NCBI GenBank assembly: GCA_013298595.1
Contig: JAAFIG010000035.1
Span: 1 to 48,427 of the forward strand
Direction: 5' to 3'
DNA from: Deinococcales bacterium
Lineage (GTDB): Bacteria; Deinococcota; Deinococci; Deinococcales; JAAFIG01
DNA: 48,427 bases
A model generated the notes under the pieces. That model was not told where the DNA came from. It worked only from the letters and a program-made list of their open reading frames with translations, and searched no databases. Each line of letters starts with the position of its first letter. Position 1 is the stretch's first letter. Positions 25,685 to 31,168 of the stretch are shown here, one piece after another. Made by a program: the position numbers and the translations under genes.

Positions 25685-27457
25685 ATGAGTTCATCTGAAA
25701 ATTGGAATTTAGCTTTGTTATACAGTGGTTTAACCGATGCGCGTTTGCATTTGCATCTCGAGGAAGCGCAGACTCGAGCTGATGTTTTTGCTCGGGCATA
25801 TTCGGGTCGGGTGGCAAGTCTCGAGCCAAGTGCGGCTTTAGCAATGCTCAACGAGTTATATGCAATTTCTATTTTGGCAAATCGCCCTGTTTGGTTTGCA
25901 CGACTGAGTTTTGATTTGGATACTGGTAATGCGGATACCAAAGCGTTGCTGAGCAAATTACAAGGTTTGCAGGCGAAAGTGCAAAATACGCAAACCTTTG
26001 CTTGGCTCGAATTAGCTGCTTTGCCTGATAATGTGTTTGCGGTTTGGTCGGCAGAGGAGGTATTGCAAGAATATTGGCAATCGCTTGCCGAGGCACGTAA
26101 GTATTTGCCATATCAGCGTTCTGAACTCGAGGAACAAGTTTTGCGACAAAAGAATTTAACTGGTGTGCAAGCTTGGACACAGCTATATGGCGAGATCACC
26201 AGTGGTATTAAGATTCCATTTGTATTGGATGGCGCAGAGCAATTACTGACAGTAGATCAGGTGCGGGCATTGCGAACTCGAGCTGATCGTAGCATTCGAC
26301 AAGCAGCAACAGTGGCGTTGTTTGCTGCTTTCGAGCAGCATGAACATGTTTTAACCTACATTTTTAATACGGTTTACCAAGATTTTAAACTCGAGATTCT
26401 CGAGTTGCGTGGTTTCCCTAGCCCAATCGAACGCACTGTGATGAATGATGGTATTACCGCTGCTGATGTACAAATGCTGTTTGCAGCAACCCAGAATCAT
26501 GTCGGTGTTTTACAGGAATTTTTTCGGGTTAAAGCCAAAGTATTAGGGGTTGAGGATTTCTCGAGTTTTGATATTGTTGCACCACTTGAAGCTGTAGATG
26601 AAGCCATAGATTTCACCACAGGTAAAGCCTTGGTTTTGGATGCGTTTGGGCGTTTTGATACAGAAGTACAAGCTTTAGCAGCCGATTTTTTTCAAGGACG
26701 TATAGATGTCGCACCCCGAGTTGGTAAACGTGGGGGTGCTTATTGTTGGGGAACAAGCCCAGAAGATCCCGCTTTTATTTTACTGAATTACAATCAGCGT
26801 TTAGATGATGTTTTTACACTGGCACACGAGCTAGGACACGGCGTGCATCACGAATTATCTCGAGTGCAAATTGCTGCTAATGCTGGGCATACCACTTCGC
26901 TTGCCGAAACTGCCAGTATTTTTGCTGAAATGCTGCTGGCAGATGTGCTGCTCGAGACTGCAACACCTGTGCAAAAACGCGAATTGCTGGCAGGTTTACT
27001 CGAGAAAGCTGCTGGTACGTTATTTCGCCAAGTGCAAATTACGCGTTGGGAGTTGTTAGCCCATGCGGAACGAGGTCAAGGTGTTGTCTCGAGTCAACGT
27101 TATTGCGAGTTGTGGTTGCAGACTTTACAAGAAACTTATGGCAATGCAGTACAATTTACCGAGGGTGACAAATGGGGTTGGATTTCTGTGCCACATGTGA
27201 TTAATTATCGTTTTTATTGTTATTCTTATGCGTTTGGAATGTTACTTGTGTTGGCTTTGTATCGGCAGTACAAAACCATTGGTGCAACAGCGTTTGCCCC
27301 AGCCTTTAAACAGTTTTTAGCCAGTGGTAACAAAGCCTCACCTCAACAATTGCTCGCGGCGATGGGTGTTAACACCCAAGACCCAGCTTTTTGGAATAGT
27401 GGTTTTGCTGTGATTCAAGGTTGGCTCGAGCAGTTCAAAGCAACTTTGGTTGAATAA
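25685..27457 (+). CDS. pepF: M3-family oligoendopeptidase (PepF-like)
   Basis: This 590-residue zinc metallopeptidase of the M3B family degrades short cytosolic peptides. The zinc motif HELGHGVHH lies in TLAHELGHGVHHEL near residue 379. SLAETASIFAEML about 25 residues later provides the third ligand (Glu). PFVLDGAEQLLTVDQVR near 178 and RFYCYSYAFGMLLVLALY near 516 are other family landmarks. No signal peptide is present. Its symbol is by family resemblance. Confidence 0.9.
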   Translation: MSSSENWNLALLYSGLTDARLHLHLEEAQTRADVFARAYSGRVASLEPSAALAMLNELYAISILANRPVWFARLSFDLDTGNADTKALLSKLQGLQAKVQNTQTFAWLELAALPDNVFAVWSAEEVLQEYWQSLAEARKYLPYQRSELEEQVLRQKNLTGVQAWTQLYGEITSGIKIPFVLDGAEQLLTVDQVRALRTRADRSIRQAATVALFAAFEQHEHVLTYIFNTVYQDFKLEILELRGFPSPIERTVMNDGITAADVQMLFAATQNHVGVLQEFFRVKAKVLGVEDFSSFDIVAPLEAVDEAIDFTTGKALVLDAFGRFDTEVQALAADFFQGRIDVAPRVGKRGGAYCWGTSPEDPAFILLNYNQRLDDVFTLAHELGHGVHHELSRVQIAANAGHTTSLAETASIFAEMLLADVLLETATPVQKRELLAGLLEKAAGTLFRQVQITRWELLAHAERGQGVVSSQRYCELWLQTLQETYGNAVQFTEGDKWGWISVPHVINYRFYCYSYAFGMLLVLALYRQYKTIGATAFAPAFKQFLASGNKASPQQLLAAMGVNTQDPAFWNSGFAVIQGWLEQFKATLVE

Positions 27458-27547
27458 TCTGTTTATATCGTCAATTGTGATATAAAACATCAATTTCCCT
27501 AAACTTTGGGCTTGTGCGAATTGATTGTCTTTCTAGTATTTTGATAT

Positions 27548-28171
27548 ATGCACCGCTTTGATGATCGTGTTCGTACTGTGCTGCGTCTAGCTCAGCAAGA
27601 AGCTTTGTTATTGCAACAGCATCAGATAGCGCCTGTGCATTTGATGCTGGGCTTACTGCGTGAAGATGAAATGGGTACACAATTTTTAGTACAACTGGGT
27701 TTGCATTTTGCGGCTGCAAAGCGTTTATTGCCTGCACCACAAGATGCCACCATTGCGGATTCCACCGATTCTGCCCAACAACCAGATTTGCAAGAAACAA
27801 CCAGAGCAATACTCGAGGTGGCTGCCAGTGAAGCTCGGCGATTACAGTCCGAGCAAGTCAGCACAGGGCATATTGTTTTGGCTTTAGCTAAACGAGCCGA
27901 ACAAGAAGCGTTAACAGATACTCCTTCGCTCTTAGCCCAAATTTTTGTACAAGCCGAAGTCAGTACACGGGCAATCATGCGCCGAGTGCTCGAGTCTTTG
28001 CAAGCTAAAACCAAGCATTCGGCTACAGTTGTTACAGTCAGTTTGCAAATTCCAGCAGACCAATTTGATGTGTTTTCCAGCAAAGCTCGAGAGCAGAATC
28101 TAGCAACACCTGATTTTTTACTAAAAATCTTGCAAGAACACTTAGAAAATGAGCTTTACGGCAAGGTTTGA
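27548..28171 (+). CDS. Clp N-terminal-domain protein without an ATPase
   Basis: This 207-residue protein has two Clp-N-type repeats. The first contains DRVRTVLRLAQQEALLLQ and APVHLMLGLLRED, and the second contains EVAASEARRLQSEQVSTGHIVLALAKR. Clp-N domains recruit substrates or adaptors to ClpA/ClpC. There is no AAA+ module. The last 50 residues form a distinct unit (VTVSLQIPADQFDVFSSK), possibly ribbon-helix-helix. A -10-like box lies just upstream, TAGTAT at 27534 or TATTTT at 27537. It is followed 45 nt later by a larger protein with the same kind of N-terminus. Confidence 0.82.
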   Translation: MHRFDDRVRTVLRLAQQEALLLQQHQIAPVHLMLGLLREDEMGTQFLVQLGLHFAAAKRLLPAPQDATIADSTDSAQQPDLQETTRAILEVAASEARRLQSEQVSTGHIVLALAKRAEQEALTDTPSLLAQIFVQAEVSTRAIMRRVLESLQAKTKHSATVVTVSLQIPADQFDVFSSKAREQNLATPDFLLKILQEHLENELYGKV

Positions 28172-28203: not shown

Positions 28204-28209
28204 TAAACT
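28204..28209 (+). promoter_or_regulatory. -10 element (TAAACT) of the Clp-N/S51 fusion gene
   Basis: TAAACT ends 7 nt before the ATG at 28217. Confidence 0.55.
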
Positions 28210-28216
28210 ATGGATA

Positions 28217-31168
28217 ATGAACCGATTAGATGCAAGAGCGCGTTTGGTATTTCATTATGCTCGGGAAGAAGCGGATCGCTTAGGGCATACTGTCATTGAA
28301 TCTGAGCATTTATTGCTTGGTTTGCTCCGTGAAGGTGGGTTGGCTTCGCAAGTGTTGCTCCAGTCTGGTTTAACACTCGAGGCAGCTCGTCAACGGGTAG
28401 TAGAAATTGTTGGACGTTTTGAACGTTCCAGAGACGCACCGCCGCCAACCATTACTAGTGCGGCTCGTCGGGTCATGGATTTGGCTGGGGTAGAGGCTTC
28501 GGCGTATCAATCTACAGTCATTACCACGGGGCATGTTTTGCTTGGCATGATTCAAGCCCATGATGGTATTGCTATGATGTTATTAAATCAGCTTGGTGGT
28601 GGGGCAAAATTGGTTCGTAAAGCTACGCTCGAGGCGTTGCAATTACCAGCTGATGTTGAAAAAGAATCGGTCAGTGCAGGCTCGAATTTATCAGGTATTG
28701 TGGCTGTGCCTGCTGATTCTGTGTTGGCACGGCTTTTGGGTGGTTCGCAACCAGAAACTCGAGCTATCCCTAAAATGCCTCCAGCGGGTATGGACTCGAG
28801 TCCAGTTGTTACTGAGATTGCGTCTAAAACTGTGGTTGTACCTGAATCTGAACCAGTGGCAGCTGACCTCGAGCCAATGGCTTCAAGTGCATCGGAAGCG
28901 TTGGTTGAAACAAATACCACGGCAGAAGCTGTTGTGGAGGTAATGGTTGATGACAAGTTAGATGTGGTTTCTGATTCTATGGAAGCTATTGAAGAAACAG
29001 AAATTCCTGATTCGATTGAAGAAACAAAAATTCCTGATTCGATTGAAGAAACAAAAATTCCTGATTCGATTGAAGAAACAGAAATTCCTGATTCAATTTT
29101 GATGGATGTCAAATTTGAAGAAGTTATCGAAGCACCACTGTTTTCAATGCAATCCAGTTCAGCCATGGATAACGAAATCATGATGGAACTCGAGCAATCA
29201 AGGGGTATGCCATTACCAGAAGTGAATTTAGATGATGAATTTGAATCTGTCATTATGCCTGTAGATGCTTTAGCCGACGAATCAGAATCGGATGCTTTAG
29301 GTATTCCTGTGCTCGAGTCTGAACAAGCCTTGCTAAGCGAAATGGCGGTTTCTGAATTGCGTAGCGTTGTGCCACAAGAAGAACCCTTGGTGGAGTCAAA
29401 TAAACAAGCGGCAATGGCATTGGCTGCGACATTGCGTTCTAAAGCCGAGCAAGAGTCTTTACGCCAAGCCCAAATTGTGATTCCAGATCCGTTCCCTCGG
29501 ACATTATCAGAATTCGAGCAACAAGTTTCGGCTGAGGAGTTCCGTAAGGCAAAATCAACGTTAGAATTGGATACCCCTGCTGCTATTCCAGAACCATTAC
29601 CACCAGAACTTGCGCCGCACGCGTCTGTGCCAGAAGATGATATTGAAGTGCTGATTGAAACAGACACTGATGGCGATGCAAGCAATGAAATCAAGGCTAT
29701 TACAGCAATGCCTTTAACACCAGAAGCGGTTGCACCAGAGGAGGTTGTCTCTTTAGCCCCAGAAAGCTTGAGTCAACCAGAAGTTCTGAATACCCGTTCC
29801 TCGAGTGATGATCTCGAGTCTGATAGTTGGGATTCAGCTGGTTCAACACCCGCACAGGTTGTTGAAATGGGTATACCAGCATTGGATTTATCTGATGTTG
29901 CTGAACCTGCATTTATTGTACCCAAAGTTGAACTCGAGGATTTTGAGACACGACCTGTGTATATCAGCCAAACCGAAATGACTGTGGATGCTCCAATGGT
30001 TCAAAAATTAACAGTCACCTCAACTCCGATGGCTGCGAACTTGGCTGCTTCATCGGAACTCGATACGTCAAATCTTGATGAAGAATTTACCAACATGCCC
30101 GAATTCCCAGAATCACCAGATATAAGCAAAATGGCACTGATGGCAGTCCCAGATTCTGAGGTAGGTATTCGTCAACCTGAAGCTGACCTCGAGTTAAATG
30201 CCGACGAATCTGATTTTGAAATGCACTTGCCACACGATCAACTCGAGGATGCGATACCACTGGAGGTTTTGATGCCCACTGAAGCCCAAACTGCAAATCA
30301 CTTGTTATCTACCGAAACAAACCATGTACCTGAAACAGAAATCCCAGTTATTGAGCAACCAGAAGAACCAGATTTCCCAGAACTCGAGTTGGTATCGCAT
30401 CCTTCATCATGGGATATGGTGACAGCTTCTAGTATGATGAAACGCCAAATCATTGCTTTTGGTGGTGGCGGATTTTCACAAGAACCCGATAATTTATTGC
30501 TTGACCACTATGTGCTCGAAACAGCTCGTATGGCTCGAGAAGTCAGTCGTCCTCGGGTTTGTTTTATCCCAACAGCTGCTGGTGACAGCCCGCAATACAT
30601 TGAACGTTTCTACACTGCCTTTAAACCACTCGAGTGCGAACCAATGCACTTACCACTGTTTCATACCGAAGATTGGACAGACGAACTCGAGGACACCATT
30701 CTCAGTGCTGATGTGCTGTATTTCTCGGGCGGCAGCACCAAGAATGCTTTGGCGTTGTGGAAAGCTTGGGAACTCGAGCCAATTTTCCAAAAAGCTTATG
30801 AAGGTGGCACGGTTTTTGCGGGGTTATCGGCAGGGGCTATTTGTTGGTTTGAGCAATTTACGACTGATTCGGCAGGGCGCTCTTTAGGTGTTATGGAAGG
30901 CTTAGGCTGGTTACCCGGTTCGTTCACACCTCATTACGATGCCGAACGATACCGCCGCTTTGCACTAGAAAAATTCTTACGCGCTCATAAAATTGCACCA
31001 GGATTTGCAGCCGATGACGGCGCAGCCTTGCATTTTGTCAATGGTGAGTACAAAGCAGCCATTTCCTCGAGAGCCAGTGCCAAGGCATACCATGTCACAT
31101 TAGGGCGTAATCGCTTAGTTGAATCACCACTCGAGACACGGTTTTTAGGTGAATCATCAGACGAGTAA
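28217..31168 (+). CDS. Fusion of a Clp N-terminal domain and a peptidase S51 (PepE-like) domain
   Basis: This 983-residue protein has three parts. Residues 1-155 are two Clp-N repeats (ARLVFHYAREEADRLGHTVI, ESEHLLLGLLREGG, TGHVLLGMIQAHDG). Residues about 156-739 are a low-complexity acidic linker rich in Glu, Pro, Ser and Asp, with a 9-residue repeat. Residues 740-983 are a peptidase-E-like S51 domain. It has IIAFGGGGFSQEPDN, FIPTAAGDSPQYIERF, LYFSGGST and GLSAGAICWFE with the nucleophile serine, then FTPHYDAERYR with a likely catalytic histidine. S51 enzymes normally stand alone and cleave Asp-containing dipeptides or cyanophycin. The coding frame is uninterrupted. A separate start at 30434 is possible but has no leaderless promoter. 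Confidence 0.88.
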   Translation: MNRLDARARLVFHYAREEADRLGHTVIESEHLLLGLLREGGLASQVLLQSGLTLEAARQRVVEIVGRFERSRDAPPPTITSAARRVMDLAGVEASAYQSTVITTGHVLLGMIQAHDGIAMMLLNQLGGGAKLVRKATLEALQLPADVEKESVSAGSNLSGIVAVPADSVLARLLGGSQPETRAIPKMPPAGMDSSPVVTEIASKTVVVPESEPVAADLEPMASSASEALVETNTTAEAVVEVMVDDKLDVVSDSMEAIEETEIPDSIEETKIPDSIEETKIPDSIEETEIPDSILMDVKFEEVIEAPLFSMQSSSAMDNEIMMELEQSRGMPLPEVNLDDEFESVIMPVDALADESESDALGIPVLESEQALLSEMAVSELRSVVPQEEPLVESNKQAAMALAATLRSKAEQESLRQAQIVIPDPFPRTLSEFEQQVSAEEFRKAKSTLELDTPAAIPEPLPPELAPHASVPEDDIEVLIETDTDGDASNEIKAITAMPLTPEAVAPEEVVSLAPESLSQPEVLNTRSSSDDLESDSWDSAGSTPAQVVEMGIPALDLSDVAEPAFIVPKVELEDFETRPVYISQTEMTVDAPMVQKLTVTSTPMAANLAASSELDTSNLDEEFTNMPEFPESPDISKMALMAVPDSEVGIRQPEADLELNADESDFEMHLPHDQLEDAIPLEVLMPTEAQTANHLLSTETNHVPETEIPVIEQPEEPDFPELELVSHPSSWDMVTASSMMKRQIIAFGGGGFSQEPDNLLLDHYVLETARMAREVSRPRVCFIPTAAGDSPQYIERFYTAFKPLECEPMHLPLFHTEDWTDELEDTILSADVLYFSGGSTKNALALWKAWELEPIFQKAYEGGTVFAGLSAGAICWFEQFTTDSAGRSLGVMEGLGWLPGSFTPHYDAERYRRFALEKFLRAHKIAPGFAADDGAALHFVNGEYKAAISSRASAKAYHVTLGRNRLVESPLETRFLGESSDE
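28991..29098 (+). repeat. Four tandem 27-bp in-frame repeats in the fusion linker
   Basis: Four units of 27 bp begin at 28991, 29018, 29045 and 29072 and encode the 9-residue unit EETEIPDSI or EETKIPDSI. They differ only at a G/A position and, in the last unit, one further base. They extend the acidic linker at residues 259-294 and look like recent slippage or duplication. Confidence 0.95.

Follow-up and report, generated by a model that had tools for sequence, protein, structure and literature searches.

A Deinococcales gene encoding a ClpC-type N-terminal domain and a peptidase S51 domain joined by a long acidic linker

An open reading frame in a Deinococcales genome places a Clp_N domain ahead of a peptidase S51 domain, with an acidic stretch of several hundred residues between them. 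This arrangement raises two questions: whether the frame is translated as a single protein, and what a domain taken from a Clp unfoldase could do when it is joined to a peptidase. We analysed the gene within the window, that is, the whole 48,427-nucleotide stretch of DNA under study, and compared it with related genomes.

The reading frame and its orthologue

The frame starts with an ATG, runs through 983 codons and meets its first stop, a TAA, at 31166-31168 of the plus strand. A Pfam search with the 983-residue protein gave matches to Clp_N (two repeats, 7e-19) and, further along the same frame, to Peptidase_S51 (residues 745-945, 4e-43). The initial annotation, made from the sequence alone, had described a frame open across all 983 residues that carries two domains from unrelated systems. 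The ORF search and translation bore out the frame at exactly the same coordinates, and Pfam and a second species bore out the pair of domains. The linker, which had been given as acidic and 580 residues long, is indeed acidic, but its length is about 595. Both domains are present as described; the Clp-N part is a complete two-repeat ClpC-type N-domain, and the S51 part begins exactly where stand-alone peptidase E genes begin. The features are collected in Table 1.

Table 1. Features of the fusion gene and its surroundings in the window
Feature	Coordinates	Strand	Basis
Fusion gene, 983 aa, Clp_N(x2) - acidic linker - peptidase S51	28217..31168	+	ORF and Pfam; orthologue in L031
ClpC-type double Clp_N domain, residues 1-144	28217..28648	+	Pfam; ClpC identity; orthologue 81%
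Long acidic linker, presumably disordered, residues 145-739	28649..30433	+	Composition; coding test
Conserved linker motif 1, NLSGIVAxPADSVLAxLLG, residues 157-175	28685..28741	+	17/19 residues kept; adjoining linker ~27%
27-bp tandem repeat, 4.1 copies, IEETxIPDS nonapeptide	28988..29098	+	Repeat search
Conserved linker motif 2, EExxIPDSxLxDVxFxEV, residues 286-303	29072..29125	+	71% identical within ~28% linker
Conserved junction WDxVTASS, residues 732-739, directly before S51	30410..30433	+	7/8 residues kept
S51 domain (residues 740-983) of the Bacillus-type peptidase E subgroup	30434..31165	+	Pfam 4e-43; identities
Nucleophile Ser871 (GLSAGA)	30827..30829	+	Alignment
Asp884, matching by its spacing an essential residue, Asp147, in Streptomyces dipeptidase E Orf2	30866..30868	+	Alignment; PMC11078827
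Catalytic His906 (TPHY)	30932..30934	+	Alignment
Third triad residue Asp934 (AADDGAA)	31016..31018	+	Alignment; H+28 spacing as Orf2 H170-D198
-10-like box TAAACT, 7 nt before ATG, leaderless-type promoter	28204..28209	+	TANNNT count; orthologue box
Separate lone-Clp_N protein, 207 aa, directly upstream, no part of the fusion	27548..28171	+	Pfam 2.6e-9
M3 oligopeptidase of the oligopeptidase F type; its pairing with the lone Clp_N gene is conserved	25685..27457	+	Pfam 7.7e-37

A search of 60 related genomes for the same domain order, the check that had been proposed, found it in one, G001, which is a second species of the same genus as the genome holding the window (G000). The orthologue is one ORF of 780 residues (L031 5001-7343) with an identical order of domains, and contig JAAFJQ010000007.1 ('MAG: Deinococcales bacterium') carries a gene identical to it. 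Between the two species the Clp_N domains are 81% and the S51 domains 78% identical, and the alignable linker is about 27-28% identical. The dN was 0.163 for each domain and the dS 1.44 (Clp_N) and 1.75 (S51), giving dN/dS values of about 0.11 and 0.09, which indicate that purifying selection acts on both domains; dS was saturated in the linker. The surroundings of the gene differ. The order in the window is M3 oligopeptidase, lone Clp_N, fusion and guanylate kinase, and in G001 the fusion lies between thioredoxin-like and nucleotidyltransferase-like genes (names by reading of the sequences).

In the linker, 22% of the residues are Asp or Glu and 4.4% are Lys or Arg, and the net charge is -105 (about 14.6% Glu, 7.6% Asp and 9.5% Pro, computed on residues 145-735). 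Frame-0 codon usage across it scored 0.36 bits per codon (0.40, 0.36 and 0.31 in successive thirds), like that of the neighbouring genes (0.34-0.43), whereas the five other frames gave negative scores and contained 5-58 stops, indicating that the linker is real coding sequence. The alignment with G001 has many in-frame gaps. Because the repeat arrays differ between the species and all their periods are multiples of three (27 and 15 bp in the window; 27, 24, 102 and 129 bp in G001), we conclude that the linker has been lengthened in frame in each. Motif 1 was looked for elsewhere in four genomes of the family (G000-G003) and, at the sensitivity used, was found only in the G001 orthologue.

A frameshift or assembly error is an unlikely source of the fusion, since it is contradicted by the presence of the gene in two species, by the coding-like linker and by the in-frame repeats; the combination of separate genes in relatives with a frameshift here, which would have undone the initial annotation, was looked for and does not apply. 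A chance open frame was ruled out by the coding-like codon usage across the linker.

The two domains

The Clp_N domain shows about 50-56% identity to the N-domain of ClpC in most Deinococcales genomes, and it matched ClpC2 more weakly than ClpC (E 1e-5 versus about 1e-18). A tree of N-domains gave it no clear branching position relative to ClpC. Pfam found no AAA domain in the 983 residues, and hence neither of the two AAA+ modules of a ClpC unfoldase; the protein has the lone-Clp_N (ClpC2-like) composition, Clp_N without AAA+. Without the D1/D2 ATPase, it is no unfoldase subunit. With respect to the phosphoarginine pockets (B. subtilis numbering), E32 is kept as E30, but E106 is replaced by Gly105 in both fusions, so that only one of the two pocket glutamates is present and the classical way of binding phosphoarginine is at most half retained. 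In both species the lone Clp_N protein likewise has no E106 equivalent. A search of the genome for McsB gave no match, and a control search was equally silent.

A close known parallel for such a detached domain is mycobacterial ClpC2, which also has Clp_N without an AAA+ module, a full ClpC in the same genome and a leaderless-type promoter; it differs in having neither a peptidase nor such a linker and in being an autorepressor. Lone ClpC2 sequesters cyclomarin and may serve as a holdase (PMC10030653). In the initial annotation, Clp-N was said to recruit proteins to unfoldases. This does not fit the published role of the domain, which is the unfoldase's own receptor for substrates, adaptors, cyclic peptides and peptide antibiotics (PMC12583610, PMC10149685). 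Because the domain is a receptor on the unfoldase, the simplest expectation for a copy without the ATPase is that it binds the ligands of ClpC, not ClpC itself.

The S51 domain scored 148 bits against PF03575 (gathering score 23.9) over profile positions 1-203 of 206, which places it in the family. It is 60% identical to a stand-alone S51 protein of G003 (a third genus of the same family of Deinococcales), 48-49% to the peptidase E of Priestia and Cytobacillus, and 18% to E. coli PepE, with which it has the serine, histidine and acidic residue of the triad in common. The triad Ser871, His906 and Asp934, together with Asp884, is kept in nearly all aligned relatives, and the spacing of the four agrees to within one residue with that seen in the Streptomyces dipeptidase E Orf2 (S134, D147, H170 and D198), whose activity was abolished by mutation of any one of these residues (PMC11078827). 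Thus the GxSAG nucleophile, the His, the Asp and the extra essential Asp of the Bacillus-type enzymes are all present. Two differences from these enzymes were seen: the relatives that were found stand alone and have about 230-250 residues, whereas 739 residues precede the domain here, and the two fused copies have a 4-residue insertion in common (AREV region). AlphaFold2 models built from two-sequence alignments had a pLDDT of 32.5 for the full protein and 45.8 for the S51 domain, values too low for the models to be of use.

Cyanophycin had also been named as a possible substrate. The cyanophycinase model TIGR02069 gave 23-27 bits, far below its equivalog cut-off of 126.6, on which ground a cyanophycinase identity was rejected and this substrate is unlikely; what the domain shares with cyanophycinase and with Salmonella/E. 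coli PepE is the S51 family. The score against the PepE equivalog model was also far below cut-off. B. subtilis PepE, which cleaves Asp-pNA, and MccG, which cleaves processed microcin C, fall in one S51 clade, clade V (PMC9239234). Judged by its similarity to the Bacillaceae enzymes, the fused domain may belong to this clade as well, and it is predicted to be an enzyme of the peptidase E kind that is active on Asp-Xaa di- and tripeptides.

Start site, origin and genomic setting

If the gene is read from its first ATG only, the product would be a single protein of about 105 kDa made from a leaderless mRNA. The box upstream of that ATG has a counterpart in G001 (TAAAAT, likewise 7 nt upstream). 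Over the 48.4-kb window, TANNNT lies 5-9 nt before 12 of 24 gene starts and before 11 of 198 internal ATGs; that half of the gene starts tested have a -10-like box suggests that leaderless transcripts are frequent.

Alternatively, one frame might yield two products, a lone Clp_N protein and an S51 peptidase, by an internal start at Met740/741 or by proteolysis in the linker, for which a long acidic stretch would be an easy target. The S51 part in the window indeed keeps the ancestral peptidase E start, Met-Met (MMKRQIIAFGGGGF), exactly at the junction, with a GGTGA about 11 nt upstream. However, the internal ATGs at codons 734, 740 and 741 have neither a -10 box nor a canonical Shine-Dalgarno sequence, and G001 reads VTASSVTKRHI at the junction, with Val-Thr (GTC) and no Met. 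There the start Met of the stand-alone S51 genes has been lost, and the only candidate is a GTG a few residues upstream, which has no recognisable ribosome site. Conservation of the junction residues WDxVTASS would also be unexpected for untranslated-leader DNA. We consider two products rather unlikely. A single product is favoured, short of proof, because -10 boxes stand at the starts of both fusions and not at the internal ATGs, and because the sister species has no Met at the junction.

Among 111 Deinococcota genomes, only 3, all of one family, have a close S51 relative; two of these are fused and one, that of G003, is separate. Since this third genus has S51 alone, the fusion probably arose within the genus, from the S51 gene of the family and a ClpC-type N-domain. 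Searches for the fusion gave no match in phages and none in viral contigs, and the plasmid matches were partial, the coverage of the query not exceeding about 27% in those listed; a phage or plasmid origin was rejected on these grounds. The contig scan relied mostly on linker patterns, and distant fusions in other phyla may escape it.

The M3 oligopeptidase and lone Clp_N genes form a pair that is conserved in both species (25685-28171 in the window; L068 4392-6816 in G001, where the lone Clp_N protein has 216 residues, L068 4392-5042). In G001 the fusion does not adjoin this pair, which is followed by a shikimate dehydrogenase-like gene (name by reading). The window genome holds ClpP, ClpC, ClpA with ClpS, and ClpB. 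In its ClpC (L071 1738-3948) the DEAG motif is separated from the second Walker A by 97 residues, versus 149 in a Phycisphaerales ClpC; the protein thus seems to lack the M-domain, with about 50 residues missing between D1 and D2. At the position expected for the ClpP-docking xGF tripeptide it has VRF; the ClpA beside ClpS has IGF there, and the Phycisphaerales ClpC has xGF. Other lone Clp_N proteins, of about 263-289 residues and with unrelated C-terminal extensions, were seen in another family of the order (L074 of G009 and L075 of G047).

Two further observations were made. PADLOC gave no match, and a defence system was rejected as a candidate. The palindrome CTCGAG occurs 309 times in the 48.4-kb window, versus 9.6 expected from base composition, and 434 times in 62 kb of loci of the family, versus 15.4 expected (L002, L003, L031, L042-L044, L068-L073 and L076). 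Of its 225 coding copies, 137 lie in frame 0 (Leu-Glu). The excess, which resembles that of the HIP1 palindrome of cyanobacteria, is much weaker in other Deinococcales families, and a literature search found no paper on over-representation of CTCGAG.

Possible function of the fusion

We tentatively favour a dipeptidase that carries a ClpC-type receptor domain and binds ligands or adaptors of ClpC rather than ClpC, as one 105-kDa protein with a variable tether. We lean to it because it is with its N-terminal domain that ClpC binds substrates, adaptors and cyclic peptides (PMC12583610, PMC10149685). The gene would be translated from a leaderless mRNA as one protein of about 105 kDa. Its Clp_N domain, free of an ATPase, would bind ClpC ligands (substrates, adaptors or ClpC-directed peptides) through its groove, with a contribution from the single remaining phosphoarginine-type pocket, and its S51 part would act as an Asp-Xaa di/tripeptidase of the peptidase E kind. 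Binding would then either concentrate the peptidase at ClpC ligands or sequester these ligands, as mycobacterial ClpC2 does. The linker would space the domains flexibly, its length being of little importance, and its conserved motifs would be docking sites. Because S51 enzymes act on di- and tripeptides, the benefit of tethering one to protein-sized ligands is not obvious.

The same parts could instead serve resistance, the Clp_N domain soaking up ClpC-targeting peptides and the S51 domain destroying aspartyl-nucleotide toxins. Each part has a precedent, ClpC2 with cyclomarin (PMC10030653) and MccG with processed microcin C (PMC9239234), and the S51 domain most resembles peptidase E of the Bacillus type, B. 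subtilis PepE sharing clade V with MccG (PMC9239234). However, clade membership here is drawn from similarity to Bacillaceae proteins rather than from a tree that includes MccG, no gene for a toxin or for RiPP biosynthesis was identified beside the fusion in either species, and no structural requirement links the two activities. We regard this reading as quite unlikely.

It is improbable that the gene is a recent accident, a duplicate of a ClpC N-domain joined to an S51 gene, in which the peptidase alone matters. Such an event would suit a fusion that was seen only in one genus, in the two species of it that were sampled, while S51 occurs alone in a related genus, but Clp_N is as constrained as S51 (the dN values are equal) and short linker motifs are conserved. 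More generally, domain accretion with little function for one half is possible because the fusion is found in two species only; selection on both halves argues against it.

Most improbable is the model of the initial annotation, in which Clp_N docks the dipeptidase to ClpC/ClpA assemblies or to adaptors, and the Asp-Xaa peptides that ClpP releases are removed on the spot. It would suit the company that both Clp_N proteins of the genus keep, one being fused to S51 and the other, the lone Clp_N, adjoining M3 in both species. Against it, N-terminal domains are receptors and not ClpC-binding modules, and dipeptides diffuse, so that tethering would gain little. The contacts that these domains do make inside ClpC assemblies are through the M-domain and AAA1 (PMC12583610), and the shortness of the host ClpC between D1 and D2, where the M-domain is expected, and its VRF in place of xGF weaken the model further. 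Both the resistance reading and this one are weaker than the receptor-plus-peptidase reading.

Literature searches found no description of a Clp_N-S51 protein, in agreement with the initial annotation, which knew of no example; both domains are familiar, and their combination is, so far as our tests reach, new. A broader claim, which we hold to be somewhat unlikely, is that the protein is a Clp-coupled peptidase of a new kind. Here an ATPase-free, detached ClpC receptor head on a 400-600-residue tether would deliver a hydrolase of small peptides to clients of Clp, to adaptors or to antibiotics that target Clp, and the protein would be one of several genus-specific lone-Clp_N proteins that sit with M3 and S51 oligopeptidases.

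It is the Clp N-domains that determine what the ClpCP protease recognises, and several antitubercular peptides are directed at them. N-domains that occur detached in nature have been little studied, mycobacterial ClpC2 being the best-known case that we found. A detached N-domain joined to an apparently active small-peptide hydrolase, in two species, would represent a natural re-use of Clp recognition outside the unfoldase, and the fusion protein offers a simple test of what a detached Clp_N domain binds alone.
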